From IMG/VR virus record IMGVR_UViG_3300034061_003893, positions 1 through 24,331 of that record: 24,331 bases of DNA; one strand, given 5' to 3'. The notes under the pieces are model-generated. The model made no database searches and was not told the DNA's origin. It was given only the letters and a program-made list of their open reading frames with translations. Positions 5,298 to 19,193 of the stretch are shown piece by piece; position 1 is the stretch's first letter; each line of letters begins with the position of its first letter. The translations under genes and the position numbers were made by a program. The DNA comes from a virus.

Positions 5298-5597
5298 ATG
5301 CCAGTTTATGGATTTATTTGTGATAACTGTAGTGAAAAATTTGATCGTTTTTTGTCTATTTCGGATAGAGAACAACCCTTAACAGAATCTTGTGCTAAAT
5401 GCAATCATAAAAGCATTCGTAGAGATTATGAAAATCAAACATCTGCTTTGACAGCTGATTCATCGGTAACACCAAACAAAAAAACTGGTGGAGCATGGAA
5501 TGAACTAATGTCAAAAATGAAAAAAGGTCTTCCTAAACATACTCACGCAAATTTAGATAACGCAACAAACAGATCACTGAGGAGATGGCAGTCATGA
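5298..5597 (+). CDS. FmdB-type zinc ribbon protein
   Basis: The product has 99 residues beginning MPVYGFICDNCSEKFDRF. It has paired cysteines C8/C11 and C32/C35 in the spacing of the FmdB regulatory protein family, which is typically PxYxYxCxxCgxxFE...CPxCg. The rest is an unstructured basic tail. FmdB-like zinc ribbons are common in T4-like phages and bind zinc; their role is not established, although DNA or transcription-factor binding is usually supposed. GAGG lies upstream in the end of the previous gene. The stop overlaps the next start as ATGA. Confidence 0.85.
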   Translation: MPVYGFICDNCSEKFDRFLSISDREQPLTESCAKCNHKSIRRDYENQTSALTADSSVTPNKKTGGAWNELMSKMKKGLPKHTHANLDNATNRSLRRWQS

Positions 5598-7288
5598 GAG
5601 GAATAAACAGAATAATCAATCAAATAATGCTAACTGAAGCCGATACTGGCCAGACTCAAGCAAAGACAAAAGAACAACAAGAAGCAGAGTTTAAGTCTGC
5701 TCTTGAGGCTGCTAAGGCTAGTGGTATGCCACAAGAAGAAATTGACAGAATCACAAAGGAACGAGAGCTTCAAAAAGCTTTGGAAAATCCAGTACAATTT
5801 GATCCTAAAAATGACCCAATAGCCAAATCCGAAAAAGAAAGAACAATGCCCAGCATGGGTGCTATTAGTGACGCTGAATCTAAAATTGGTCATGCAATGG
5901 CTGTTGGTGATGCTATGCGAAAGGCCGAAGCCACTGGTAAAGTTCCTGTCGGTACATATCCAAATCAAGTAGAAGAAATAATTTATACCCCAGAAGAACG
6001 AAAAAGATTGATGCAATATCAAGCAGACGTTGGCCGTGCTGCTAGAGATGCTGGAGCCACACCAGAGCAATTAGAAGTTGCTGCTGGTCCGTTTTCTACA
6101 GCAGATACAGTAGCGAAAACATCAGCAGCCGCACAAGATATTATATTAGCAGCGGCCTCTGGTATTGGTTCTAAAGGCTTACCACAGGTTCAATCTGGAA
6201 AGCCAACACCAGCTCCAGGTTCTGTCATTTCAAAGCCAATAGAAACAAAAACATCTTCTGGGCTACCTTTGACTGCACCTACTACAGCCACAACATCGGG
6301 AATTGCTCAAAGTTCTGGTACACCAACATCTAAAAGAGAATTTTCTCCAATTAATGTAAAAAGTAAAATATTAACTGCTGGTTTAGCTACTGTCATTGGT
6401 TTACAGTCTGCTGGTATTCTCCCATCTACACCAACAGCCCCTGTTCGACAAACAACCACAACATCAACTACTGGAACTACAAGCACTCCAGCCGCAACTC
6501 CAAAGGCTCCAGCAACTCCAGCCGCAACTGCAAAGGCTCCAGCAACTCCAGCCGCAACTGCAAAGGCTCCAGCAACTCCAGCCGCAACTCCAAAGGCTCC
6601 AGCAACCCCAGCCGCAACTCCAAAGGCTCCTTCTGTCCCAGCAGCAGCCGCTGTATCTACACCAAAATCAACCCCAACAACATCATCTACCCCAGCAGCA
6701 GCCCCAGAAGTTGCTAAATCAACATCAACCACTGCGCCAGTTTCTGATACAGCAACCGCACCAACAGTTGCACCAACAGTTGCACCAACCACCGCACCAA
6801 CCACCGCAACAACAACGACATCAACAACTGATACAATTGATACACAAAATCAACAACAGCAGCAACAACAGCAACAACAGCAGCAACAACAGCAGCAACA
6901 ACAGCAGCAACAACAGCAGCAACAACAAAACCAACAACAACAGCAACAAAACCAACAACAACAGCAACAACAGAATCAGCAAAATAATAATACACAACAA
7001 ACAAAGACACCACCAAATAAACCAAATAAACCTAAACCATCAACACCAACAATAATTCCGATACCAGCATCCTCAACAACAGAACCATCAGAACCAGGAA
7101 CTATATCTAAAGTTGCTGATAACATGTATAAGTTTAATATAAATCCATACTTTATTGGTACACAGAGCAACTTAGCGAAGTTTGACGATAGAGAAAGTTC
7201 TAATATTGGTGGTGGGAAATCTAGAGAAGATTTAATTGGTTATGCTTATAATTTATTAACTAATCCATCTGGTAGAAGAGAAAGATAA
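5594..7288 (+). CDS. Late protein with a cleavable-looking N-terminus, Pro/Ala repeats and a poly-glutamine tract
   Basis: The start at ATG 5594 is favoured over 5585 because GAGGAG sits nine bases upstream and the ATG overlaps the previous stop as ATGA. This gives 564 residues. The first 16 residues end in L-T-E-A, resembling the targeting and prohead protease site of T4 internal proteins. Residues about 20-165 are charged and helical. A long Thr/Ser/Pro/Ala region follows, with five 10-residue repeats of the type APATPAATAK at about 296-346. Next come 26 glutamines at 420-445 and shorter Q runs broken by Asn. The C-terminal 75 residues look more ordered (ISKVADNMYKFNINPYF). A weakly hydrophobic stretch near 255-275 (ILTAGLATVIGLQSAGILP) could be a membrane segment. 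It looks like a stalk-like or linker virion protein; no homologue was recognised. Confidence 0.8.
   Translation: MRGINRIINQIMLTEADTGQTQAKTKEQQEAEFKSALEAAKASGMPQEEIDRITKERELQKALENPVQFDPKNDPIAKSEKERTMPSMGAISDAESKIGHAMAVGDAMRKAEATGKVPVGTYPNQVEEIIYTPEERKRLMQYQADVGRAARDAGATPEQLEVAAGPFSTADTVAKTSAAAQDIILAAASGIGSKGLPQVQSGKPTPAPGSVISKPIETKTSSGLPLTAPTTATTSGIAQSSGTPTSKREFSPINVKSKILTAGLATVIGLQSAGILPSTPTAPVRQTTTTSTTGTTSTPAATPKAPATPAATAKAPATPAATAKAPATPAATPKAPATPAATPKAPSVPAAAAVSTPKSTPTTSSTPAAAPEVAKSTSTTAPVSDTATAPTVAPTVAPTTAPTTATTTTSTTDTIDTQNQQQQQQQQQQQQQQQQQQQQQQQQQQNQQQQQQNQQQQQQQNQQNNNTQQTKTPPNKPNKPKPSTPTIIPIPASSTTEPSEPGTISKVADNMYKFNINPYFIGTQSNLAKFDDRESSNIGGGKSREDLIGYAYNLLTNPSGRRER
6481..6630 (+). repeat. 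Five 30-bp coding tandem repeats
   Basis: Units begin at 6481, 6511, 6541, 6571 and 6601, each ending GCCGCAACTCCAAAGGCTCC or with one base changed. They encode about APATPAAT(A/P)K. The near-identity at DNA level points to recent slippage or recombinational expansion. Confidence 0.9.
6851..6985 (+). repeat. CAA/CAG repeat tract encoding poly-glutamine
   Basis: Twenty-six CAA or CAG codons run without a break from 6851 to 6928. Runs of 6, 7 and 2 glutamine codons follow, separated by single Asn codons. CAA and CAG are mixed, mostly as pairs, so the tract is not a pure triplet repeat. Confidence 0.95.
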
Positions 7289-8269: not shown

Positions 8270-8600
8270 AGATGTAAATAAGAGATATTCACAAACATGG
8301 GTTAAATGTAATGATGATGCTCAGAGTAAATTCTTTAGAACCAAGTTTATAGAACAATTTGGTGGTGAATTTATTTCTGAGAAAAGAGAATTTACATGGA
8401 GAGAAATACCAAAACCAACCACGGTAAGAAGAAAATTCATATTTGAAGACCCAGAAGGTAGAATTCACTTTGTCGATAACATGTATGATTTCTGTAAAAA
8501 GCGTGATCTGAAACGAGCCGCAATGTATGAAATGATTGCTGGTAAGAGAAAACAATATAAGAAATATAAATTTATTGGGGAAATACCCTGGCAATTATAA
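8250..8600 (+). CDS. Protein with a NUMOD-like DNA-binding motif and no nuclease domain
   Basis: The ATG at 8250 follows AGAGGTAAGC and overlaps the nuclease end by 20 bases. The product has 116 residues. The C-terminal half, GRIHFVDNMYDFCKKRDLKR then AAMYEMIAGKRKQYKKYKFIG, resembles the helical DNA-binding repeats (NUMOD/IENR type) that accompany homing endonucleases. No GIY-YIG or HNH core is present. It may be a stand-alone DNA-binding protein, a remnant of a homing endonuclease, or a partner of the upstream nuclease. The motif call is from pattern memory and has moderate weight. The DNA and protein show no frameshift. Confidence 0.75.
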   Translation: MIRLKLEDVNKRYSQTWVKCNDDAQSKFFRTKFIEQFGGEFISEKREFTWREIPKPTTVRRKFIFEDPEGRIHFVDNMYDFCKKRDLKRAAMYEMIAGKRKQYKKYKFIGEIPWQL

Positions 8601-8603
8601 ATA
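8596..8603 (+). promoter_or_regulatory. Late promoter TATAAATA overlapping the previous stop codon
   Basis: An exact octamer with ATG at 8609, five bases after its end. If the T4 rule holds (octamer at about -13 to -6), the transcript begins on the A of the ATG. Confidence 0.65.
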
Positions 8604-8608
8604 ACAGT

Positions 8609-9025
8609 ATGTTTTTAAATGAAAATTGGTTTTCCGAAGAAGAAATGAAGGAATTTTTAAATTCCTCGAAAGAATATCTTTTTGAGGTGGTTGAGGCTAA
8701 GACTCGCATGAAATTAGCCAGAGCAGCCAGACGAACTGCAAAAAGAAGAGCATTTCTCAGAAAATTGAGAGAAAAAAGAAGAAAACAGACACCAGCATTG
8801 AAGAAGAGAGCCTATAACGAAGTTAAGGCTGCGTTCAGAAAAAAGTTATTCAAGGGTAATTGGAAAAAATTATCATATTCTTCAAGAGCCAGGATTGATG
8901 CTGTAATACAAAAGAGAAAACCAGCCCTGAATAGAATGGTAAAAAGAATCATGCCAGCAATAATTCGTGGCGAATCTAGAAGATTACAAAATCTGTCTAG
9001 CAGAAAAAATAAAATAAATAAATAA
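8609..9025 (+). CDS. Highly basic T4-like virion-type protein of 138 residues
   Basis: The N-terminal 30 residues are acidic and end in V-V-E-A, similar to a prohead protease cleavage site. The rest is strongly basic and helical, beginning KTRMKLARAARRTAKRRAF. This Arg/Lys-rich pattern is, from memory, common in T4-like marine phages, where it is annotated only as hypothetical. Cleavage after E29 would remove the acidic part and leave a DNA-binding basic protein, as with T4 internal head proteins. That processing is inference. The late promoter lies five bases before the ATG and there is no ribosome binding site. Confidence 0.75.
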   Translation: MFLNENWFSEEEMKEFLNSSKEYLFEVVEAKTRMKLARAARRTAKRRAFLRKLREKRRKQTPALKKRAYNEVKAAFRKKLFKGNWKKLSYSSRARIDAVIQKRKPALNRMVKRIMPAIIRGESRRLQNLSSRKNKINK

Positions 9026-9044
9026 TAGTAAACGGAGAAAATAA

Positions 9045-10130
9045 ATGGCAACATATTACTGGACAGGTAAAGTAAGTTCTGATGTTCAAAATGCAAATAA
9101 CTGGTCTTTATGGGGTCCAAGTTCAGGGGTAACATTACCAGCATCAGCTGCTTCAAAGCCAGTAGATGGTTCTGATGTAGTTTTGGCTAAATATCCAACA
9201 ACTTATCCAATTTTTGGTCCACAGGGATTCTTATCAGGAGTTTCTGGTGGAACTCTAGCCGTTCAATTGGCTACGTTACAAGTAAAAGAAGATTTTAGTA
9301 AAGATATTGGAACTTCTTCCAATTATTTCAAGTTCTTTGCAAAGAATGTTGATTTAAATAAATCAGGTTCTGGTTATACTTTAGCATATATTGAACTCAC
9401 CGCAAATCCAGACGGTATAACAATGGTTGAAGATCCACATGCCATTGTTGATGTAAAATGTAAAACAAATGGCACAAAATTTTATTTTAAAGGTACAGCA
9501 TCAAGCCTTGGGGTTATATCTCAACCACAATTTGTAACAAATGCAGAAATTTATTGTTATAATTTAACAAGTTCGTTTTTTTGTTTTAATCCACTTTCTC
9601 AAGATAAATTTTATCTAGACAAAACAACTACTAATGCTACTGTTTATTCTGAAAATGGAGATGATATCACTAATTTAGTGACACAAATATTCAATGGACA
9701 ATCAAGTTTAAATATAAGTCAGGGATATCAGTCACTTTCAGAAATTTATTTAGTTGGTAACGGAACATCGATAAATTTGACACAAACTGGTGTTTCTGGA
9801 AGCAATCCATTAGATCTTCCTTATACACTATTCACTAAATTAACAGTCGGAGTATTAGGTGGACCATGCACCGTTAACTCTTATCATGAAACTTTTATAG
9901 AACAATTAAAAATTGAAAAAGGAACTATTAATTTTTATGATCCAAGTAGTGTTTCTGTAATAACATCTGGTGAATTTGATTCTCAATTAGCTTCTTTAAA
10001 TACAACAGAAAAAAATAATCTGGAAATTGCTACTTTAACTATTAAGAATATTAATGGAAAAGCAGCACCAAATATTAAATTATATGGAAATTATGACATT
10101 ACAGCGTATCCAAATGATCCGTTGGCCTAA
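9045..10130 (+). CDS. Beta-rich late structural protein, probably on the virion surface
   Basis: The ATG at 9045 has CGGAG at 9033-9037 and a late-like AATAAATA at 9013-9020. The 361-residue product begins MATYYWTGKVSSDVQNANNW, followed by WSLWGPSSG, a Trp/Asn/Gly pattern seen in phage surface and cyanophage structural proteins. The rest is rich in Thr, Ser, Asn, Gly and alternating hydrophobics, with many short repeats of the kind TLQVKEDF, ISQGYQSLSEIYLVGNG and TLTIKNINGKAAPNIKLYG. This is consistent with a beta-helix or beta-solenoid. There is no signal peptide. It is followed by a strong terminator. Whether it is a fibre, decoration protein or tail part cannot be told. Confidence 0.75.
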   Translation: MATYYWTGKVSSDVQNANNWSLWGPSSGVTLPASAASKPVDGSDVVLAKYPTTYPIFGPQGFLSGVSGGTLAVQLATLQVKEDFSKDIGTSSNYFKFFAKNVDLNKSGSGYTLAYIELTANPDGITMVEDPHAIVDVKCKTNGTKFYFKGTASSLGVISQPQFVTNAEIYCYNLTSSFFCFNPLSQDKFYLDKTTTNATVYSENGDDITNLVTQIFNGQSSLNISQGYQSLSEIYLVGNGTSINLTQTGVSGSNPLDLPYTLFTKLTVGVLGGPCTVNSYHETFIEQLKIEKGTINFYDPSSVSVITSGEFDSQLASLNTTEKNNLEIATLTIKNINGKAAPNIKLYGNYDITAYPNDPLA

Positions 10131-10144
10131 TAATTGATCGGAAG

Positions 10145-10173
10145 AACCCCCTCCAATCGGAGGGGGTTTTTTT
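10145..10173 (+). terminator. Strong intrinsic terminator
   Basis: AACCCCCTCC at 10145-10154 pairs perfectly with GGAGGGGGTT at 10159-10168 across a four-base loop. T-run 10167-10173 follows and merges directly into the next late promoter. Confidence 0.92.
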
Positions 10174-10180
10174 ATAAATA
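10173..10180 (+). promoter_or_regulatory. Late promoter TATAAATA abutting the terminator
   Basis: An exact octamer sharing its first T with the T-run of the terminator. ATG of the next gene is at 10186, five bases after the octamer. Confidence 0.7.
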
Positions 10181-10185
10181 ATAAT

Positions 10186-12243
10186 ATGAAATATTTTAAA
10201 CAACTATTAAATATAACAGAAGCATCCCCACAAGATAAGAGATTGGGTGCTCGTTTACGTAAAAGAAGACAACGAGAGCGCGAGAATGTTACTCGTCAAA
10301 CCAATCCATTTGATATGATTTTGGTTGTTAAAAATAAATCAAACGGTGAAATATTAATTATTGATAAAGAATCATACGACCCCAGATACCATGAAATATT
10401 AATTTCACCAGAAGAAATCAATCAATCTACAATTTCTGGTATCTTAAAAGATCCGAAGTTTGTACAAACCGAGACTTCTAAAAGATTATTTGGTGATGTA
10501 AAACAAGATCAACCAAAAGCAGGAGATGAAGAAAAACAAGCTTCAGCACAACAATCTGGACAAACACAAGGTGGAGGCGAAGAACAAAGACCTTTATCTG
10601 GCTCAACACCACCACCTAAAAAAGAAATACCATTTACACAGAATAACAAAGTATCTGGACCAGTAATAGCACTTGGTATGATGGCTGGTATGCAGGGTGC
10701 TCAGTTACAGAAAATGGGAGTAACCCCAGAACAACTTGAGGAATATAACTCCTCAATGGAAATTCAAGAAGTTTCAAATAAGATTGCTTCTCAAATAAAA
10801 TTCTATTTTAAAAATGTTATAGGTCGTGATATATCTGAATATGTTCCTGTAATGATTGATGAACAACCATTCCAGACCACAGATCTTTGGAAGAAAATGG
10901 GTGGATATGATTCCGCCCCCAAAGCAAATATAGTATTCAGACATATCTGCGTCGAAGCTTCTGGTAAGAATGAAAAATGCCAAAAAGAAAATTGTGAGTG
11001 TATAAAAGCTGGTGTTTCTCCATCAGAAACTTCATATTCATTCGCAATTAAATATGGTCCATCATCTATAATTAATGGTAAATTAAATAATGACACAGAG
11101 ACAACATTTTATTCTACTATTAATTTAATAGATCAATTAATTTTAAATAAACCAGTTGGTCTAGAACAAGAATTTGATGAGAAAGAGTTAAATGCTATTG
11201 AAAAATTACAAGATGATGTTAAATTCATCAAAAAAATAGCAATACAAAAGATAGATGAAAAAATTCTCAGACCAAATCAATTTCCACAAAAAAATCAAAA
11301 TCCAATAAAACAAATAGAAAAAATAGTAGATGATATCTCTAGACAAATAGAGAGAGTAATAAATTCAAATATTCTTTATAAAGAATATTACTTATTTGAA
11401 TCTCTAACTGGATATGTAAAGTTTAGTCCTGGTTCCCCTGGATTTGCTTCTGGTATAATTGCCATTATGCCAAATTCATATGATGTTGCCATGCGTGGTC
11501 TTGATTTGGATTTTGTAAGAAAAATAGCAGATGATGAAGATAATAAAATAACATTTAATTTAAAATCAAATCTATTTGAATCTCCAGACGAAAAAACAGA
11601 TCTTGAAATATGCAAAGCCAGATTTGGTGGAAAATGTCCAAAAGCATCAACACCAAAGAAATATGCCATTCGTATGTTAATATCTTCTTTCTTAAATGAA
11701 AGTAAATTTACACATTCTTCATTAAGATATCTTTTTGAGCAAGAAGATCCTGAAGCTGTTCAAGGTGATTTCATGCAGATCTTAGAGTCAGCAGAAACTA
11801 TTCAAGATTTAATGAATATCTTTTCACTTACACCAAATCAAATTACCATAACACCAATAGATCTATTTGGTGGGGCAGCAATTGATTATTCTTCAGAAAG
11901 AAATTTCATCAAAGTAAACGGAAAAATGTTCCAAATACCAGTTCAGATTGATCAACTTCCACCAAATGATCTGGAAGATATGACTGAATCATTTTCATTC
12001 ATGAAAACTTTATTGGAAAGAAAAAAAAGAAATTATCGTAAAGAATATGATGAATATCACTCAAAACCAGAACAAAGATCAAATCGTTCAAAAAGAGTTT
12101 TGGCACGAAGAAAAATGATGAAACTCGGTAAAGTAAAAAAAGGCGATGGCAAAGATGTTGATCACAAAGATGGTAATCCACAAAATAATTCAGTCGATAA
12201 TCTAAAAGCAGTGGATAAATCCCACAATAGAGGTAAACATTAA
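10186..12243 (+). CDS. Large late protein with an N-terminal capsid-targeting-like sequence and a C-terminal HNH motif
   Basis: The product has 685 residues. It begins MKYFKQLLNITEAS, close in form to the T4 internal protein leader MKTYQEFIAEA with a cleavage site at I-T-E-A. A Gln/Gly/Pro-rich linker covers about 105-145. A large central region contains cysteines in C-x-x-x-x-C-x-C order (EKCQKENCEC near 265) and another C pair near 485-493. The last 60 residues hold RSNRSKRVLARRKMMKLG, then DVDHKDGNPQNNSVDN at 657-672 and N681, the signature of an HNH_3-type nuclease (H660, N668, N681). The central part was not recognised. A virion protein carrying a nuclease or DNA-binding HNH end is the simplest reading. 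The gene has its own late promoter, and its stop overlaps the next start as TAATG. Confidence 0.8.
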   Translation: MKYFKQLLNITEASPQDKRLGARLRKRRQRERENVTRQTNPFDMILVVKNKSNGEILIIDKESYDPRYHEILISPEEINQSTISGILKDPKFVQTETSKRLFGDVKQDQPKAGDEEKQASAQQSGQTQGGGEEQRPLSGSTPPPKKEIPFTQNNKVSGPVIALGMMAGMQGAQLQKMGVTPEQLEEYNSSMEIQEVSNKIASQIKFYFKNVIGRDISEYVPVMIDEQPFQTTDLWKKMGGYDSAPKANIVFRHICVEASGKNEKCQKENCECIKAGVSPSETSYSFAIKYGPSSIINGKLNNDTETTFYSTINLIDQLILNKPVGLEQEFDEKELNAIEKLQDDVKFIKKIAIQKIDEKILRPNQFPQKNQNPIKQIEKIVDDISRQIERVINSNILYKEYYLFESLTGYVKFSPGSPGFASGIIAIMPNSYDVAMRGLDLDFVRKIADDEDNKITFNLKSNLFESPDEKTDLEICKARFGGKCPKASTPKKYAIRMLISSFLNESKFTHSSLRYLFEQEDPEAVQGDFMQILESAETIQDLMNIFSLTPNQITITPIDLFGGAAIDYSSERNFIKVNGKMFQIPVQIDQLPPNDLEDMTESFSFMKTLLERKKRNYRKEYDEYHSKPEQRSNRSKRVLARRKMMKLGKVKKGDGKDVDHKDGNPQNNSVDNLKAVDKSHNRGKH

Positions 12244-13085
12244 TGAATAAATTGATGGAAGTTTATCGAAAGTCTGGATTAGGTAGATGGTTTCATGGAG
12301 AAACAGCAACTAAGAAACCAGGTTGGGATCGTTATAACTCCGAAGGTAAAAGAGTTGGTAAATGTGGTGATGCGAAAGAAGGAAGTTCCTATTCAGCCTG
12401 TTTATCAAAGCAAAAAGCAAGACGTTTAGGTAAGAAAAAAATAGCATCATTTGTAAAGAGAAAAAGAGCAGCACAAAAAGAATCTGGTCGTGGTGAAAAA
12501 GGTGCTGGTGGTAAAGGAATGAAACCAGTTTTTGTCAAAACAGGAGTTACTGAATTGAAAGAAAATAAAATTCACTCGTTGATTGCAGAAGCAGTAGCAA
12601 AAGCATCGATGCCTTGTAATAAACCAAGAAGATCAACAAGACCAGGTAAAAAAATGATGGTCAAAGCCTGTGAAGGTGGTGTTGAAAAATTAGTACACTT
12701 TGGTGCTAAAGGTTATGGTCATAATTATTCATCAGCTGCCAGAAAATCATTCAGAGCCAGACATAAGTGCGGTGAAAAGAAATCTAAATTATCAGCACAA
12801 TATTGGGCATGTAAGAAATTATGGGCAGGACCAAAAGGTTCAACCGCTCCATGTCCAGCTGGAAGAGTATGCAAAGAAAATACTAAATATAGTTTAGCTA
12901 GTTTATTATTAGAAAAACGAAGAAGAAGAAAAAAGTATAAAAATAAAGCGTCTGATCCAGAATTATGGGGAAGAGCAATAGCAGCTGCCAAGGCAAAGTT
13001 TGATGTATATCCAAGTGCCTACGCAAATGCTTGGGCATCAAAATGGTACAAAAAGCACGGCGGAACCTGGGAAAAAATAGATTAA
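12243..13085 (+). CDS. Three-module basic protein with phage domains of unknown function
   Basis: The product has 280 residues in three parts. Residues about 17-80 (ETATKKPGWDRYNSEGKRVG, then ACLSKQKARRLGKKKIASF) resemble a repeated marine-phage module I recall as DUF6321. Residues about 123-210 (NKPRRSTRPGKKMMVKACEG and ARKSFRARHKCGEKKSKLSA) resemble a second module found in T4-like phages and some bacteria. Residues about 236-280 (ASDPELWGRAIAAAKAKF, then YANAWASKWYKKHGGTW) resemble one I recall as DUF5872. Domain numbers are from memory. IAEA at 114-117 between modules one and two could be a protease site. No catalytic motif was seen. The protein is Cys and Lys rich, so structural zinc is possible. 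Confidence 0.8.
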   Translation: MNKLMEVYRKSGLGRWFHGETATKKPGWDRYNSEGKRVGKCGDAKEGSSYSACLSKQKARRLGKKKIASFVKRKRAAQKESGRGEKGAGGKGMKPVFVKTGVTELKENKIHSLIAEAVAKASMPCNKPRRSTRPGKKMMVKACEGGVEKLVHFGAKGYGHNYSSAARKSFRARHKCGEKKSKLSAQYWACKKLWAGPKGSTAPCPAGRVCKENTKYSLASLLLEKRRRRKKYKNKASDPELWGRAIAAAKAKFDVYPSAYANAWASKWYKKHGGTWEKID

Positions 13086-13094
13086 GGAACAACC

Positions 13095-13727
13095 ATGAAA
13101 AATTTAATCAAAATATTTGAAAGAAAAATGTTGCCTGGTGAAAAAAGTGAAGAGAAAAAACTTCATAAAAAAATATCAAAAGCACCATTCATCAAGCAAT
13201 ATGGAAAAGATCGTGGTGAAGAAATATATTATGGTTATACTAAAAAATTAGCAATGGAAGATATATGCCCATGCGAAGATGAAGTTATTCTAGAAAAAGA
13301 AGGAAAGAAAAAGCGTGGATCTCCATGGTTTATTGATAAGGAAACCAGAAACCGTAATCCTCATACTGAAAGAAAGAAAATTCCTAGAAACCACCCAAAC
13401 AGAACTAAAATGACTGCATCCCAAAAGGCTGCACGACCAAGAATTGCTAAGAAGCTTATTGCATCATACAAAAAAAGAGGATTAAGTTTATCTGATCCAG
13501 CTCCAAGTGATCCAGCTAAAACAGTTGAGGAAATAATCTACGCAACCGCCACTAAACTTGCGATAGATGGTGTTTCTAGTGTTCGTAGTAAAAAGAAAAA
13601 GGGTAAGAGTAAGGCGACACAAAAGAGAGAATCAAAATTAGCAAAGAGTAAATCAGATAAAGAAGAAAGACAAAAGAGTATTCGTTCAGCCTTATCAAAG
13701 ATAGATCGCCAAAGAAGCGAAAAATAA
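13095..13727 (+). CDS. Lys-rich late protein of 210 residues
   Basis: The start at 13095 is supported by AAGGAA upstream. The N-terminal segment is amphipathic (MKNLIKIFERKMLPGEKSEEK), and then comes FIKQYGKDRGEEIYYGYTKKLAMED, a helix-rich motif with repeated use of Tyr. The rest is basic and low in complexity, with PWFIDKETRNRNPHTERKK and a long Lys/Ser tail (KKKKGKSKATQKRESKLAK). There is a Cys pair in CPCEDE near residue 56. No enzyme motif was found and no family was recognised. It sits between the three-module protein and the next late gene, so a head-packaged basic protein is likely but unproven. Confidence 0.7.
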   Translation: MKNLIKIFERKMLPGEKSEEKKLHKKISKAPFIKQYGKDRGEEIYYGYTKKLAMEDICPCEDEVILEKEGKKKRGSPWFIDKETRNRNPHTERKKIPRNHPNRTKMTASQKAARPRIAKKLIASYKKRGLSLSDPAPSDPAKTVEEIIYATATKLAIDGVSSVRSKKKKGKSKATQKRESKLAKSKSDKEERQKSIRSALSKIDRQRSEK

Positions 13728-13750
13728 TAATAAATATATCAGGAGAATAT

Positions 13751-14704
13751 ATGAAAACATTTAAAACTAGACTCAGCGAAGCTGGAACAGCAGATGGCTT
13801 TCTTGGAGATATTTCTGATGCTGAAGGTATCCGAGCCTATACAGGTAGAGGTATAACAGATCCAACCAAACAAGGTTCATTTGGAACTGTTCACCAAAAT
13901 AGAGCAGACTTTAAACCATCAAAGAATATTCAGTCACAAGAGTTAGATCAAATTCATTCAATGATCTATACGTATCTTTCTGGTGTTCATGAAGATCCTC
14001 GACAGGCTCTATACGGACTCAAAGTTCGTTTAAATCACCTTGGTCTTGATTTTGAATTTAATAGAAATGTTCCATTACCAGTTGGCCCAGTTACATTAAA
14101 GCTTACTCGTTATGGTGAAAAGTTTGGAACAACACCAACAACAAATTTAATGCAAGATGGTTTTGATCGCGGTCAAGACTACACAAATATTTCATTGCAA
14201 ATGAATTTAATGCAAGATCAATCAAAACGATTTTATTTCGATGGTATTAATTTAGTTCCAGATTCAACAATGCGAGTAACAGTTATGACACCAGTAAATC
14301 AAAAAATGACAGCAGAAAGTGTCTTTAATTTTATGGCTTCGGATGAAGATTTCTCTGAAAATGTTTTAAAACCAATTGCATTGAATCTTTATGAAAAAAT
14401 GGAAAACAATCAAATCACAGAAGAAGAATTTGATAAGAAAGTAAATTTCGTAGTTGAAAGAGCATCCAAGAGATTGGGTGTAGAGTTTTCTCAAGAAGAT
14501 AAAACAATATTAGCTGAAGGTTTAGCTAAACAAATATTAGAAGCAGAGTCTTTAACTGGTCAAGAAGGTCAGTCTGATATCAGCAGAATCGATAAGATGG
14601 CTAAAGCTTCTGGTAAGGGTGGCAAATCAGTAAAAGAGAGAAGAGCCGAAAGATTAGCTCAATTAAGAAAAGAAGTAAAGAAGCTTAAGGGTAAGAAGAA
14701 ATAA
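13751..14704 (+). CDS. Late virion-type protein with a T4 internal-protein-like leader
   Basis: The ATG at 13751 has AGGAG at 13741-13745 and AATAAATA at 13729-13736 upstream. The 317-residue product begins MKTFKTRLSEAG, the closest match in the window to the T4 leader MKTYQEFIAEA, with a candidate cut between E10 and A11. The middle is a folded region with strands (LPVGPVTLKLTRYGEKFGTT, YFDGINLVPDSTMRVTVMTP) and the remainder is helical (ASKRLGVEFSQEDKTILAEG, LAKQILEAESL). The C-terminus is basic. It resembles conserved marine T4-like virion proteins of unknown role. Packaging inside the head is inference from the leader. Confidence 0.75.
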   Translation: MKTFKTRLSEAGTADGFLGDISDAEGIRAYTGRGITDPTKQGSFGTVHQNRADFKPSKNIQSQELDQIHSMIYTYLSGVHEDPRQALYGLKVRLNHLGLDFEFNRNVPLPVGPVTLKLTRYGEKFGTTPTTNLMQDGFDRGQDYTNISLQMNLMQDQSKRFYFDGINLVPDSTMRVTVMTPVNQKMTAESVFNFMASDEDFSENVLKPIALNLYEKMENNQITEEEFDKKVNFVVERASKRLGVEFSQEDKTILAEGLAKQILEAESLTGQEGQSDISRIDKMAKASGKGGKSVKERRAERLAQLRKEVKKLKGKKK

Positions 14705-16818: not shown

Positions 16819-17356
16819 TTTGCTCAAATAAATACTTACAAATATAATAAGAATCTATGATGTCGGAAACTGGATTTCCGACATCTTTTTTATTAGGGGT
16901 AATTATTCCCTGTAAAGGAATCCCAGTTTCCTTTAAAAAAGCCTGATACATTTGAGTCTTATCGGCGTTTCCTTTTCCAGTTGCCATCTTTTTGATATGA
17001 GATGGGGTAACAATTTCTACTGGCATAGAAGCCTGATAGAGCTTATATTTAAGGATTCCTGTATTCTCGGCTATATGAAAAACTCTGCCCTGTGCGCCAT
17101 ACGCATAGCCTTCTAAAGCCACCTGTTCGCACCCTAATATTGATTTCATTACCCATTCTGAGATGGTATCGTACCTTTCGCATTCTTCTTTGTAGTCTTC
17201 GAATAATTTTCCATGAATATTACGAAAAAAGGTACAGGCATATTTTTTGATATCTGTTAAAAAGTGAAATTGACAATTTTCAAAGGTAAATTTATCACCT
17301 CCGAAAACACAAACAGCTGGTCCATTTAAACTATAATCAATTCCAGCAATAATCAT
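16805..17356 (-). CDS. RuvC-like Holliday junction resolvase
   Basis: The product has 183 residues. It starts MIIAGIDYSLNGPAV with D7 in the RNase H-like first strand. The remaining expected acidic residues are E82 in VALEGYAYG and D165 plus D168 in VSDIIDSY. A Gly-Lys-Gly-Asn region at 127-130 and A-D-K at 131-133 match the RuvC basic site. This family is common in T4-like marine phages, where it is thought to cut recombination or replication junctions before packaging, a job done in T4 itself by gp49. It runs opposite to the late genes on both sides. A perfect terminator for plus-strand transcripts is embedded in codons for residues 158-166. No clear ribosome binding site was seen. Confidence 0.85.
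   Translation of the reverse strand: MIIAGIDYSLNGPAVCVFGGDKFTFENCQFHFLTDIKKYACTFFRNIHGKLFEDYKEECERYDTISEWVMKSILGCEQVALEGYAYGAQGRVFHIAENTGILKYKLYQASMPVEIVTPSHIKKMATGKGNADKTQMYQAFLKETGIPLQGIITPNKKDVGNPVSDIIDSYYICKYLFEQIKIS
16859..16891 (+). terminator. Perfect 11-bp terminator inside the resolvase gene
   Basis: GATGTCGGAAA at 16859-16869 pairs with TTTCCGACATC at 16875-16885 across a five-base loop, followed by six T at 16886-16891. In the plus direction it ends the lysis-gene transcript. The DNA also codes in the minus direction for residues 158-166 of the resolvase. Confidence 0.92.
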
Positions 17357-17363
17357 ATAAATA
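17356..17363 (+). promoter_or_regulatory. Late promoter TATAAATA sharing a base with the resolvase start
   Basis: An exact octamer that begins at the A of the resolvase ATG on the other strand. The next plus-strand ATG is at 17384, 20 bases after the octamer, with TAGGAA as weak ribosome binding site. Confidence 0.65.
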
Positions 17364-17383: not shown

Positions 17384-18250
17384 ATGAATAAAAAACAATT
17401 AACGGAAAAATATTATGATATTTTAAATGAAAACTGGTTTGTCAAGTACGGTGGACAATTACTTAAAGCATTAGGTTTAGGTTCTATAATTGGTGCTGGT
17501 GCTGAGGCTGGTTCACAGGCTATTGAAAAACTTGGTGGAATTGAAGGTGTAATTTCAGCTGTCTCTGATAAAAAGCCACAGAGACAGGTAAGCCCAGAGA
17601 GAGTAGAAGCTTTGGCATCTGGTGATAAAGCAGCAAATATTAGATCATTGGCTTCTCCTGAGTTCCAGAACATGGGAATAAACCAAAGAACAAGTACAGT
17701 AACAAGAGAAAGAGCCTTGGCTCGTAATTTAGCAAAAGCAGAATTAGCAAAAGCCAAAGCCGCTGGTGATAAAGATGCCATTGAAAAATATACAAAAGCA
17801 TTCAAGGATCTAGAAACAGGTCCAATGAATCTACAACCAGTTGAGGTTCGTGGTAGTCAATCAGCAGCAACACAGCGTGGTAGAATGGCTCAACGTGGTG
17901 TAAATATATTCCAACAAGCAAGATCTGTCGATGATGCTAATCAAAGAGCAGCAGCAGAAAGAGACATCGAAAGAGAAGGCCCATTAACAGGATTTAAAGA
18001 TCGTGTTGAGGTTATGAAAGGTATGGAAGAACGAGGATATAAAATAGGTGCTGGTGATGATGATGCATTGTTTAAAGAAAGAGAAGCGGCAAAAAAAGAA
18101 GCTAATGCTGAATTCGAAAAACTTGCTGCAAAATATCCTGACGGAATTCCAGATTCTGTACTCGATGCATGGGCGCGTAAGAGAAACCAAGCCGTAGACT
18201 CTAAAACTAAAAATATTGGAACTGTTAATCCGAACGTAAAAATGAGATAA
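17384..18250 (+). CDS. Late protein of 288 residues, unknown
   Basis: The ATG at 17384 follows a late promoter. The product begins MNKKQLTEKYYDILNENWF, containing L-T-E-K and I-L-N-E-N sites that could serve prohead protease. A glycine-rich hydrophobic stretch at about 28-46 (LKALGLGSIIGAGAEAGSQA) could insert in a membrane or pack in a coil. The rest is charged and helical, rich in Ala, Glu, Arg and Lys (RERALARNLAKAELAKAKAA and LFKEREAAKKEANAEFEKLA), probably a coiled coil. No known family was recognised. The downstream terminator is shared with a convergent small gene. Confidence 0.75.
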   Translation: MNKKQLTEKYYDILNENWFVKYGGQLLKALGLGSIIGAGAEAGSQAIEKLGGIEGVISAVSDKKPQRQVSPERVEALASGDKAANIRSLASPEFQNMGINQRTSTVTRERALARNLAKAELAKAKAAGDKDAIEKYTKAFKDLETGPMNLQPVEVRGSQSAATQRGRMAQRGVNIFQQARSVDDANQRAAAERDIEREGPLTGFKDRVEVMKGMEERGYKIGAGDDDALFKEREAAKKEANAEFEKLAAKYPDGIPDSVLDAWARKRNQAVDSKTKNIGTVNPNVKMR

Positions 18251-18524: not shown

Positions 18525-19193
18525 TTAGCGACGACGGCGACCCATCAGACCCGCCATACCAAGAAGAGCAATTGCCCCAGGAGCAGGAGCGGAAAGAACA
18601 AAAGCACCCCCTGCGGTATTACCGACGAATGTAGGAAGTGATCGCCAATCACCCCAGGTATATTGACCATTATCGTCTGTGAACCAGAAGTCTTGAACAT
18701 TTTGACCCTGTGACCAAACAAATTGATCGCCAGCAGAGTCATTGAGGTAAGCACCAATATTCATGTAATATGAACCAGCAGCGAGTTGAGTCACAAATGG
18801 TACATAAAATTCATAAACTGGTTCACCAAAGAAGTTGAATTCGCCTGTATCAACAACAGAAATGTTGCTGATGTTGATATTGGTTGAACTAACTGGCGAA
18901 CTAAAGTCTGAACTCCACACAATAACTTGGAATCCAGTAATGTTTCCAATACCTTGACTATTGAGTCCATTTGAAGAACCCCACCACTTCAAAGAAGAAG
19001 TTGTGTATGAATCTTCAAGATCAAATCCTTGCGCTCCACTTTGTGCATAAGTGTATGAGCCACTTGACTTATATGCATCAGAATAGAATCCAACAGTATC
19101 AACTACTGGATTATTAACAACGATGAAATCTGCCATTGCCTCAGCACCAAACATCATGGTTGCTACGATACTTGCCATTACATTCTTAATCAT
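18525..19193 (-). CDS. Secreted PEP-CTERM-like protein with its own promoter and terminator
   Basis: The 222-residue product begins MIKNVMASIVATMMFGAEAM followed by AD, a signal peptide with likely cleavage at A-M-A/D near residue 21. The last 21 residues are a PEP-CTERM-type tail: a proline motif PAPG, a hydrophobic helix AIALLGMAGLMG and a final RRRR. In bacteria such tails are recognised by exosortase and retain the protein at the cell surface or in the matrix. The body is rich in Ser, Gly, Tyr, Trp and Asn with beta strands, as in many PEP-CTERM proteins. A consensus promoter and terminator make it an independent unit, like a phage moron gene. GGAG lies eight bases before the ATG. Acquisition from a bacterium is likely. 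Confidence 0.85.
   Translation of the reverse strand: MIKNVMASIVATMMFGAEAMADFIVVNNPVVDTVGFYSDAYKSSGSYTYAQSGAQGFDLEDSYTTSSLKWWGSSNGLNSQGIGNITGFQVIVWSSDFSSPVSSTNINISNISVVDTGEFNFFGEPVYEFYVPFVTQLAAGSYYMNIGAYLNDSAGDQFVWSQGQNVQDFWFTDDNGQYTWGDWRSLPTFVGNTAGGAFVLSAPAPGAIALLGMAGLMGRRRR

Follow-up and report, generated by a model that had tools for sequence, protein, structure and literature searches.

We analysed a 24.3-kb virus record (IMG/VR IMGVR_UViG_3300034061_003893; the whole stretch is called the window), a fragment of a T4-like marine phage in which a run of late-type genes encodes proteins with short N-terminal leaders similar to those of the T4 internal proteins (IPs). It is highly probable that these leaders are capsid-targeting sequences (CTSs), which would load an exchangeable set of cargo proteins into the prohead and be removed by the prohead protease gp21. 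The evidence consists of conserved leaders, bodies swapped behind them, a Glu held in register at the putative cut, gp21 and gp23 genes in a near-complete relative, and agreement between leader and virion content in the cyanophage S-CREM2. The window encodes homologues of replicative helicase (from 23149), primase (22136), ThyX (21203), and ribonucleotide reductase (19257), and on its left side a VWA protein whose relatives occur in Kyanoviridae. Its rightward late-type genes (5.6-18.3 kb) contain all four proteins flagged in a first-pass annotation, named here by their start positions (5594, 8609, 10186, and 13751).

In the proposed mechanism, the cargo set would be produced late in infection, and the first 6-29 residues of each protein would bind the prohead core. 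The cargo would be enclosed together with the scaffold; a gp21-type protease would then cut behind the Glu of an [L/I/V/M]-x-E site, freeing the cargo in the head beside the DNA. Since any protein bearing such a leader would be loadable, leaders could acquire, lose, and exchange the bodies that follow them, and several cargo units could also be synthesised as fused chains in which such sites separate the units. For the phage of the window we infer binding to the core, enclosure, cutting after Glu, and retention with the DNA; whether the cargo enters the host by injection and what each body does are matters of speculation. The likely window cargo comprises the basic proteins 8609, 12243, and 13095 and the HNH-bearing protein 10186, and the most speculative part concerns their jobs, namely a nuclease function for the HNH domain of 10186 and DNA binding by the 3 basic proteins.

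Relatives were obtained by scanning viral contigs (G1, 22 kb; G2, 30 kb; G3, 42.5 kb) or reached via the body of 8609 (G055, 156.7 kb; G057, 48 kb; G054, 27 kb). G1 is 80-99% identical to the window for most shared proteins, and G2 and G3 are about 45% identical at the VWA protein. G055 is near-complete and syntenic with nearly the whole window, with a reductase 81% identical. The features considered are as follows; a vertical bar in a leader marks the proposed cut after Glu.

5594-5638, + strand: leader MRGINRIINQIMLTE|A of the 564-residue low-complexity protein 5594-7288; MLTE|A is shared with gp23.
8609-8695, + strand: leader of 8609 ending EYLFEVVE|A; Glu in register in homologues.
8696-9025, + strand: putative basic cargo body of 8609 (41 Lys/Arg and 4 Asp/Glu past residue 30).
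10186-10221, + strand: leader MKYFKQLLNITE|A of 10186, absent from the fused homologue; its I-T-E|A end is that of T4 IPI.
10222-12243, + strand: putative cargo body of 10186 with a C-terminal HNH domain (PF13392, E 4e-8; phrog_4590, E 6.5e-13).
12243-12260, + strand: leader MNKLME|V of the three-module protein 12243; homologues MIKMKFINE|VYRKSGLG (G1) and MINE|VYKKSGLG (G057).
12570-12590, + strand: site IHSLIAE|A inside 12243, where module 1 meets module 2; KTGINE|A at the same junction in G057.
12888-12914, + strand: site YSLASLLLE|K inside 12243, where module 2 meets module 3; GKLLLE|A at the same junction in G057.
13095-13121, + strand: leader MKNLIKIFE|RKMLPGE of 13095; the G1 counterpart has the same leader.
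13751-13780, + strand: leader MKTFKTRLSE|A of 13751 (leader-profile score 16.1).
13781-14704, + strand: putative cargo body of the 13751 family, defined by a body-only hidden Markov model (HMM).
17384-17431, + strand: leader MNKKQLTEKYYDILNE|N of 17384; identical or near-identical leaders stand on unrelated G1 bodies at 5421 and 11435.

In T4, the first ten residues of IPIII (MKTYQEFIAE) are sufficient for packaging, residues 4 and 7 serving targeting and residues 8 and 10 cutting, and gp21 cuts after L/I-x-E (PMC9026906). The first-pass annotation had reported T4-like leaders on four mutually dissimilar proteins. All four N-termini were present (13751, MKTFKTRLSE|A; 10186, MKYFKQLLNITE|A; 8609, MFLNENWFSEEEMKEFLNSSKEYLFEVVE|A; 5594, MRGINRIINQIMLTE|A), and no mutual similarity was found among the four bodies. 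Only 13751 fits IPIII closely; 8609 and 5594 match just the leader end. The leaders of 12243, 13095, and 17384 and internal sites in 12243 and 13095 had been overlooked. Leaders measure 10 residues in 13751, 12 in 10186, 16 in 17384, 15 in 5594, and 9 in 13095; against about 7-19 in T4, 8609 exceeds the range with 29 (17 if translation begins at a possible internal start at 8645, giving MKEFLNSSKEYLFEVVE|A) and 12243 falls short of it with 6. At the targeting positions, 13751 and 10186 have F4, with R and L, respectively, at residue 7, and the others differ; both positions fully fit in G2 19070 (MKSFKRYILE) and G3 38506 (MKTFKQFIKE).

As a criterion, the cut motif was of uneven value. [LI]-x-E occurred within the first 31 residues of 11 of the 31 window proteins against 10.1 expected, with no signal over shuffles, whereas [LIVM]-x-E-A was modestly enriched within the first 35 residues (4 of 31 proteins, 0.8-0.95 expected; p = 0.008 by shuffling, p = 0.003 against internal stretches). 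Since the motif alone is too weak, the claim was tested by comparison with relatives.

Conservation of the leader ahead of a variable body, which had been proposed as a check, was borne out in homologous phages by one leader on 3 bodies, by a leader present where a fusion is split, and by a Glu kept in register. The leader MNKKQLTEKYYxILNE heads 3 genes in two close contigs, the window and G1, as MNKKQLTEKYYDILNE|NWF (288 residues), MNKKQLTEKYYKILNE|SFL (144 residues), and MNKKQLTEKYYIILNE|QFD (462 residues), with no significant similarity between their bodies. When window proteins were compared by tblastn, the first 19 residues of 17384 occurred twice in G1 and the remainder was absent. Identity between the gene at 17384 and G1 11435 covers 60 nt of upstream sequence and the initial 33 nt of coding sequence; past these 33 nt the two diverge, ILNE being retained with synonymous changes. 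In G1, 5421 is inserted with the homologue of 10186 on one side and that of 12243 on the other, a G2 leader gene (MKSFKRYILE|T, 386 residues) is missing at the corresponding place in G3, and the 5594 locus of G2, G3, and G057 carries MELKS(F/Y)KT(Y/F)L(A/H)E| ahead of other bodies. One leader precedes unrelated bodies, indicating that bodies are exchanged behind it.

The proteins 8609 and 10186 are separate in the window and fused in relatives. In G2, G3, and G057 their bodies are joined in one protein of 849-875 residues, and 10186 aligns to the 849-residue homologue of G2/G3 from residue 12, the leader Glu, onward only; the leader of 10186 is therefore extra sequence on the separate gene. 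At the joint, the fused forms contain the L-x-E sites NLRE|E (G2/G3), ILTE|E (G057), and MLIE|Q (G055). The G055 chain (116144-119062) runs from an NMNAT/cytidylyltransferase-like part, joined through ...EEIQEFANNQEVLTE|, over VLTE| to the basic body and over MLIE| to the 10186 body. Homologues of 8609 found by body, not by leader, show NLNE|A (G2/G3), QMNE|E (G057), VLTE|T (G055), and DVVE|A (HTVC008M gp142, where it precedes a basic domain), with the register EVVE|AKTRMKLA, NLNE|AASVRTRMKLA, QMNE|EVSVQTRMKLA, and VLTE|TVSAQGRMKLA. The 8609 body is also homologous to that of L267, which bears the canonical leader MKSFKEYIAE.

A Glu in register was likewise seen in the families of 13751 and 12243. 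The homologues of 13751 begin MKTFKTRINE|T, MSLFKKLLSRLVE|N, MKKFKQILSKLAE|S, MTDYKKIINLLLE|D, and MKSFKDFQNVNE|K. A tblastn search of isolate phages with 13751 gave no match; it was reached later via intermediates and the Pelagibacter phage HTVC008M, and a body-only HMM ties it (E 3e-4; G2/G3, E 1e-9) to a family present in that phage and in environmental phages. For 12243, the register is LME|VYRK, INE|VYRK, and INE|VYKK at the front, IAE|A or INE|A at the first module joint, and LLE|K or LLE|A at the second; its body matches L294, which carries leader-type genes. The 12243 protein (12243-13085) contains a Cys/Arg-rich module that also occurs in many podophages and in phrog_220 (minor head protein and DNA pilot), and this independently hints at a virion location. 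The G1 homologue of 13095 has the same leader, an extra module, and then a second copy, KKIRISE|RKMLPGE, so that RKMLPGE occurs twice, and 3 copies of SGIVSEEI bound an insertion in G3, where G2 has one copy. The four original examples are not equally good, 5594 being the weakest against chance; its MLTE|A recurs at the predicted gp23 cut of G055 (...RALAEGMLTE|APAN, with tetrapeptide and Ala identical) and in S-BM3 gp23. The 5594 body (5585-7288) has a long poly-Q run and TPAATPKAPA repeats.

To place these leaders, viral contigs were scanned with MK-x-FK-x-F-[ILMF]-x-E, which has the IPIII spacing, and with a second pattern. The patterns occurred at least 215 times, and in 205 of the matches listed no more than 30 open codons lay upstream. 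At a threshold of E 1e-2, the proteins behind these leaders comprised at least 84 clusters of mutually unrelated bodies, one of which, with 87 members, is linked by a chain of shared modules. When the pattern was permuted at equal information content, the entire collection yielded 22 matches, 6 of them at plausible starts of open reading frames (ORFs). At the free positions of the first pattern, T/S was preferred at 3 and Q/E at 6 among the matches listed. Some contigs have several leader genes, with five in a row in L107 (5915-9422), two of which have possible metalloprotease- or ADP-ribosyltransferase (ART)-like features by eye. Families matched by leader-bearing bodies were AdoMet lyase, ART-PolyVal, HD_4, DnaJ, lytic transglycosylase, and cytidylyltransferase. 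When environmental leaders and IPIII, but not IPI, were combined into a profile, it retrieved IPI, IPII, IPIII, and gp61.1 from 267 T4 ORFs; scores were 18.3 for IPIII, 16.1 for 13751 (none expected by chance among 33 ORFs), and 13.1 for IPI. T4 gp61.1 (NC_000866 18966-19130, 54 residues) has a perfect leader, MKTFKEFIKE|D, scoring above IPIII. Few profile matches were found in S-BM3 and HTVC008M, and the canonical leader form is therefore not universal. In a body-only comparison, 8609, 12243, and, via G2, 13751 matched proteins selected by leader alone, and the remaining window proteins matched none of these. Together, these results support the assignment of the window leaders to the T4 capsid-targeting class.

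Searches of the window cargo against Pfam and PHROGs mostly gave no match besides the HNH domain and the Cys/Arg module, and PADLOC returned a single weak restriction-enzyme-like match on leader-bearing bodies and nothing else. AlphaFold models of 13751 and 10186 (predicted local distance difference test 51 and 42, respectively) were too poor for a fold search.

The relation between leader and virion was assessed in S-CREM2, for which mass spectrometry, as given in the published table of virion proteins, identified 52 virion proteins of 219 ORFs (PMC10665884, Table 3). The strict pattern M[KR]x[FYL]xx[FY][LIMVF]xE selected the SAM hydrolase ORF6 (MKDFDSFLEE), the hypothetical ORF13 (MKDLHSFLTE), the APH-like kinase ORF14 (MKRFDAFLTE), and the cytidylyltransferase ORF154 (MKNFSSFLTE), and all 4 belong to that virion set (hypergeometric p = 0.003, indicative only, as the pattern was chosen after some S-CREM2 N-termini had been seen). 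A profile threshold gave a weaker result (3 of 49 versus 1 of 170; p = 0.04). Of the virion enzymes with neither a structural nor a lysis role, the fourth, ORF12 (annotated as Cas9), carries LRFASFMAE|A behind an N-terminal extension. The cytidylyltransferases of seven other isolates (30-66% identical) all start with such a leader followed by E|A. A module of about 35 residues, GLxxxGHGxYxDxxGxIxAxTVxGKL, stands directly behind the leader in unrelated cargo enzymes (S-CREM2 ORF12 and ORF14, S-SSM4 132679, S-SM2 SSM2_161, S-BM3 65663, and G011 10457). The T4-class leader match, the body swaps, and the 4 of 4 agreement in S-CREM2 favour the expanded set of head cargo suggested earlier, which would be packaged likewise in the phage of the window.

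The prohead protease, whose absence had been named as grounds for rejecting this idea, is encoded by the near-complete relative G055 together with gp20, gp22, and gp23 (gp21: PF03420, E 2e-40) and was not seen in the window genome itself. It was present in every complete T4-like genome tested (T4, S-BM3, S-SSM4, HTVC008M, and S-CREM2) and in 12 of 50 leader-bearing contigs, including both of those above 160 kb.

Several observations weigh against packaged cargo. The (L/I)-x-E motif is by itself uninformative in the window and would not carry the claim, and most window leaders except that of 13751 resemble the T4 leader only at the cut end. No gp21 was found in the window, G1, G2, or G3, because these are fragments (relatives of 22-43 kb). 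The virion proteomics comes from S-CREM2, outside the clade of the window phage, and supports the leader class only; its authors propose the enzymes as virion riders without dismissing contamination and warn that such enzymes could be co-purified (PMC10665884). Some cargo-like families could also belong to the tail or baseplate, as 14719 and 15093 in the same operon resemble baseplate assembly genes.

Short motifs picked by eye at N-termini could arise by chance, as the chance level of N-terminal LxE in the window would suggest, but all comparative tests and the permuted-pattern control contradict this, and we give chance almost no credence. By the comparative tests it is ruled out for 13751, 10186, 8609, 12243, 13095, and 17384. 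It is unlikely, to a lesser degree, that the leader proteins are core or scaffold substrates of head maturation that shape the prohead, are cut up, and leave, like T4 gp67, gp68, and most of gp22. The strongly basic, repetitive, multi-site 13095, the triple-repeat protein of G3, and the poly-Q 5594 would fit such a role, and cutting at several sites is known for the core proteins of T4 (PMC9026906); however, the bodies vary among close relatives and include AdoMet lyase, ART-PolyVal, HD_4, cytidylyltransferase, and lytic transglycosylase, and finished S-CREM2 virions contain leader-bearing enzymes. We regard as very improbable, between these two, a function of the leaders elsewhere, be it in expression (as translation start context) or in assembly (as attachment to baseplate or tail), with coincidental LxE ends. 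The genes do adjoin baseplate-assembly-like genes, and 8609 and 10186 have unusual promoters with the start codon at +1, but the leaders are conserved at the protein level despite synonymous drift, the Glu is kept in register, and both the match to T4 CTS spacing and IPs and the agreement with virion enzymes speak against this reading. Beyond the window, we lean towards a general head-loading system of marine T4-like phages, in which a gp21-cleaved N-terminal tag would have been recombined onto at least 84 unrelated bodies and cargo chains, so that proteins for anti-restriction, ADP-ribosylation, nucleotide handling, wall cutting, and nuclease activity would enter alongside the DNA as infection begins.

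Such a system would resemble T4 IPI, IPII, and IPIII in its short leader ending in (L/I)-x-E, often MK-x-[F/Y]-x-x-x-[L/I]-x-E, in dissimilar, basic bodies, in late expression, and in the gp21-type protease (here in relatives). It differs in that the bodies are far more numerous and include enzymes, that several leader forms are particular to a lineage, and that some units are fused into chains with sites inside them; for the window proteins, packaging in the head is predicted. T4 Alt, an ADP-ribosyltransferase packaged in the head after N-terminal trimming, has a parallel in the ART-PolyVal body of L122, which carries a CTS-type leader, although the window has no Alt homologue. In phiKZ and SPN3US, a gp21-like protease cleaves many head proteins behind a Glu, and these proteins travel with the DNA, but the motif and propeptide form are different, and the likeness is one without shown sequence relation. 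The polyvalent proteins of phages and conjugative elements (PMC5512222) are multi-domain effector chains predicted to be packaged, in which ART-PolyVal recurs; here, by difference, most cargo has one body following a short leader, and the joints carry protease sites. Candidate chains of the polyvalent type are 12243 (three modules) and G055 116144-119062 (three parts), whose units would be putative effectors, but the joint sites suggest cutting apart. Among virion enzymes of the cyanophages S-CREM2 and S-SCSM1, the cytidylyltransferase, SAM hydrolase, and APH-like kinase have N-termini of the window leader class, and the parts of these papers considered do not mention a leader or loading mechanism.

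Use of the CTS for various proteins in T4-like phages has been suggested already (PMC9026906). The leader strings were not found printed in the literature searched, nor did openly searchable literature describe the breadth, the lineage-specific leaders, the fused chains with joint sites, or the link to cyanophage virion enzymes. If the proposal is right, an N-terminal tag readable from sequence would identify phage proteins that travel in the head and explain by what mechanism enzymes come to be detected time and again in cyanophage virions. Late genes annotated as hypothetical, dozens of them, would become testable first-minute effectors against host defences, and the evolution of cargo sets would proceed through exchange of bodies behind a constant tag and through splitting or fusion of chains at protease sites.

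Three late-promoter-like boxes precede leader genes.

8596-8603, + strand: TATAAATA box before 8609, in the same arrangement as that of 10186.
10173-10180, + strand: TATAAATA late-promoter-like box 13 nt ahead of the start codon of 10186.
17356-17363, + strand: exact TATAAATA late-promoter-like box upstream of 17384.

These exact boxes point to late expression of 8609, 10186, and 17384. With the 13-nt spacing at 8609 and 10186, the ATG coincides with the +1 that a late promoter of T4 type would be expected to have, and leaderless late mRNAs are possible for both. The 10186 box comes after a terminator-like hairpin (about 10147-10172) with a T run.

Apart from the leader genes, the minus strand of the window (18525-19193) encodes a secreted protein with a PEP-CTERM-like ending, APAPGAIALLGMAGLMGRRRR, and proteins from the same region of relatives have dockerin-like D-x-N-x-D-G repeats (G3 28169-29212; G057 34635-36410). 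We take the ending to be of the type associated with Planctomycetes, and the window phage may have a planctomycete host; a host search with the PEP-CTERM-like gene gave a match in one bacterium bin.

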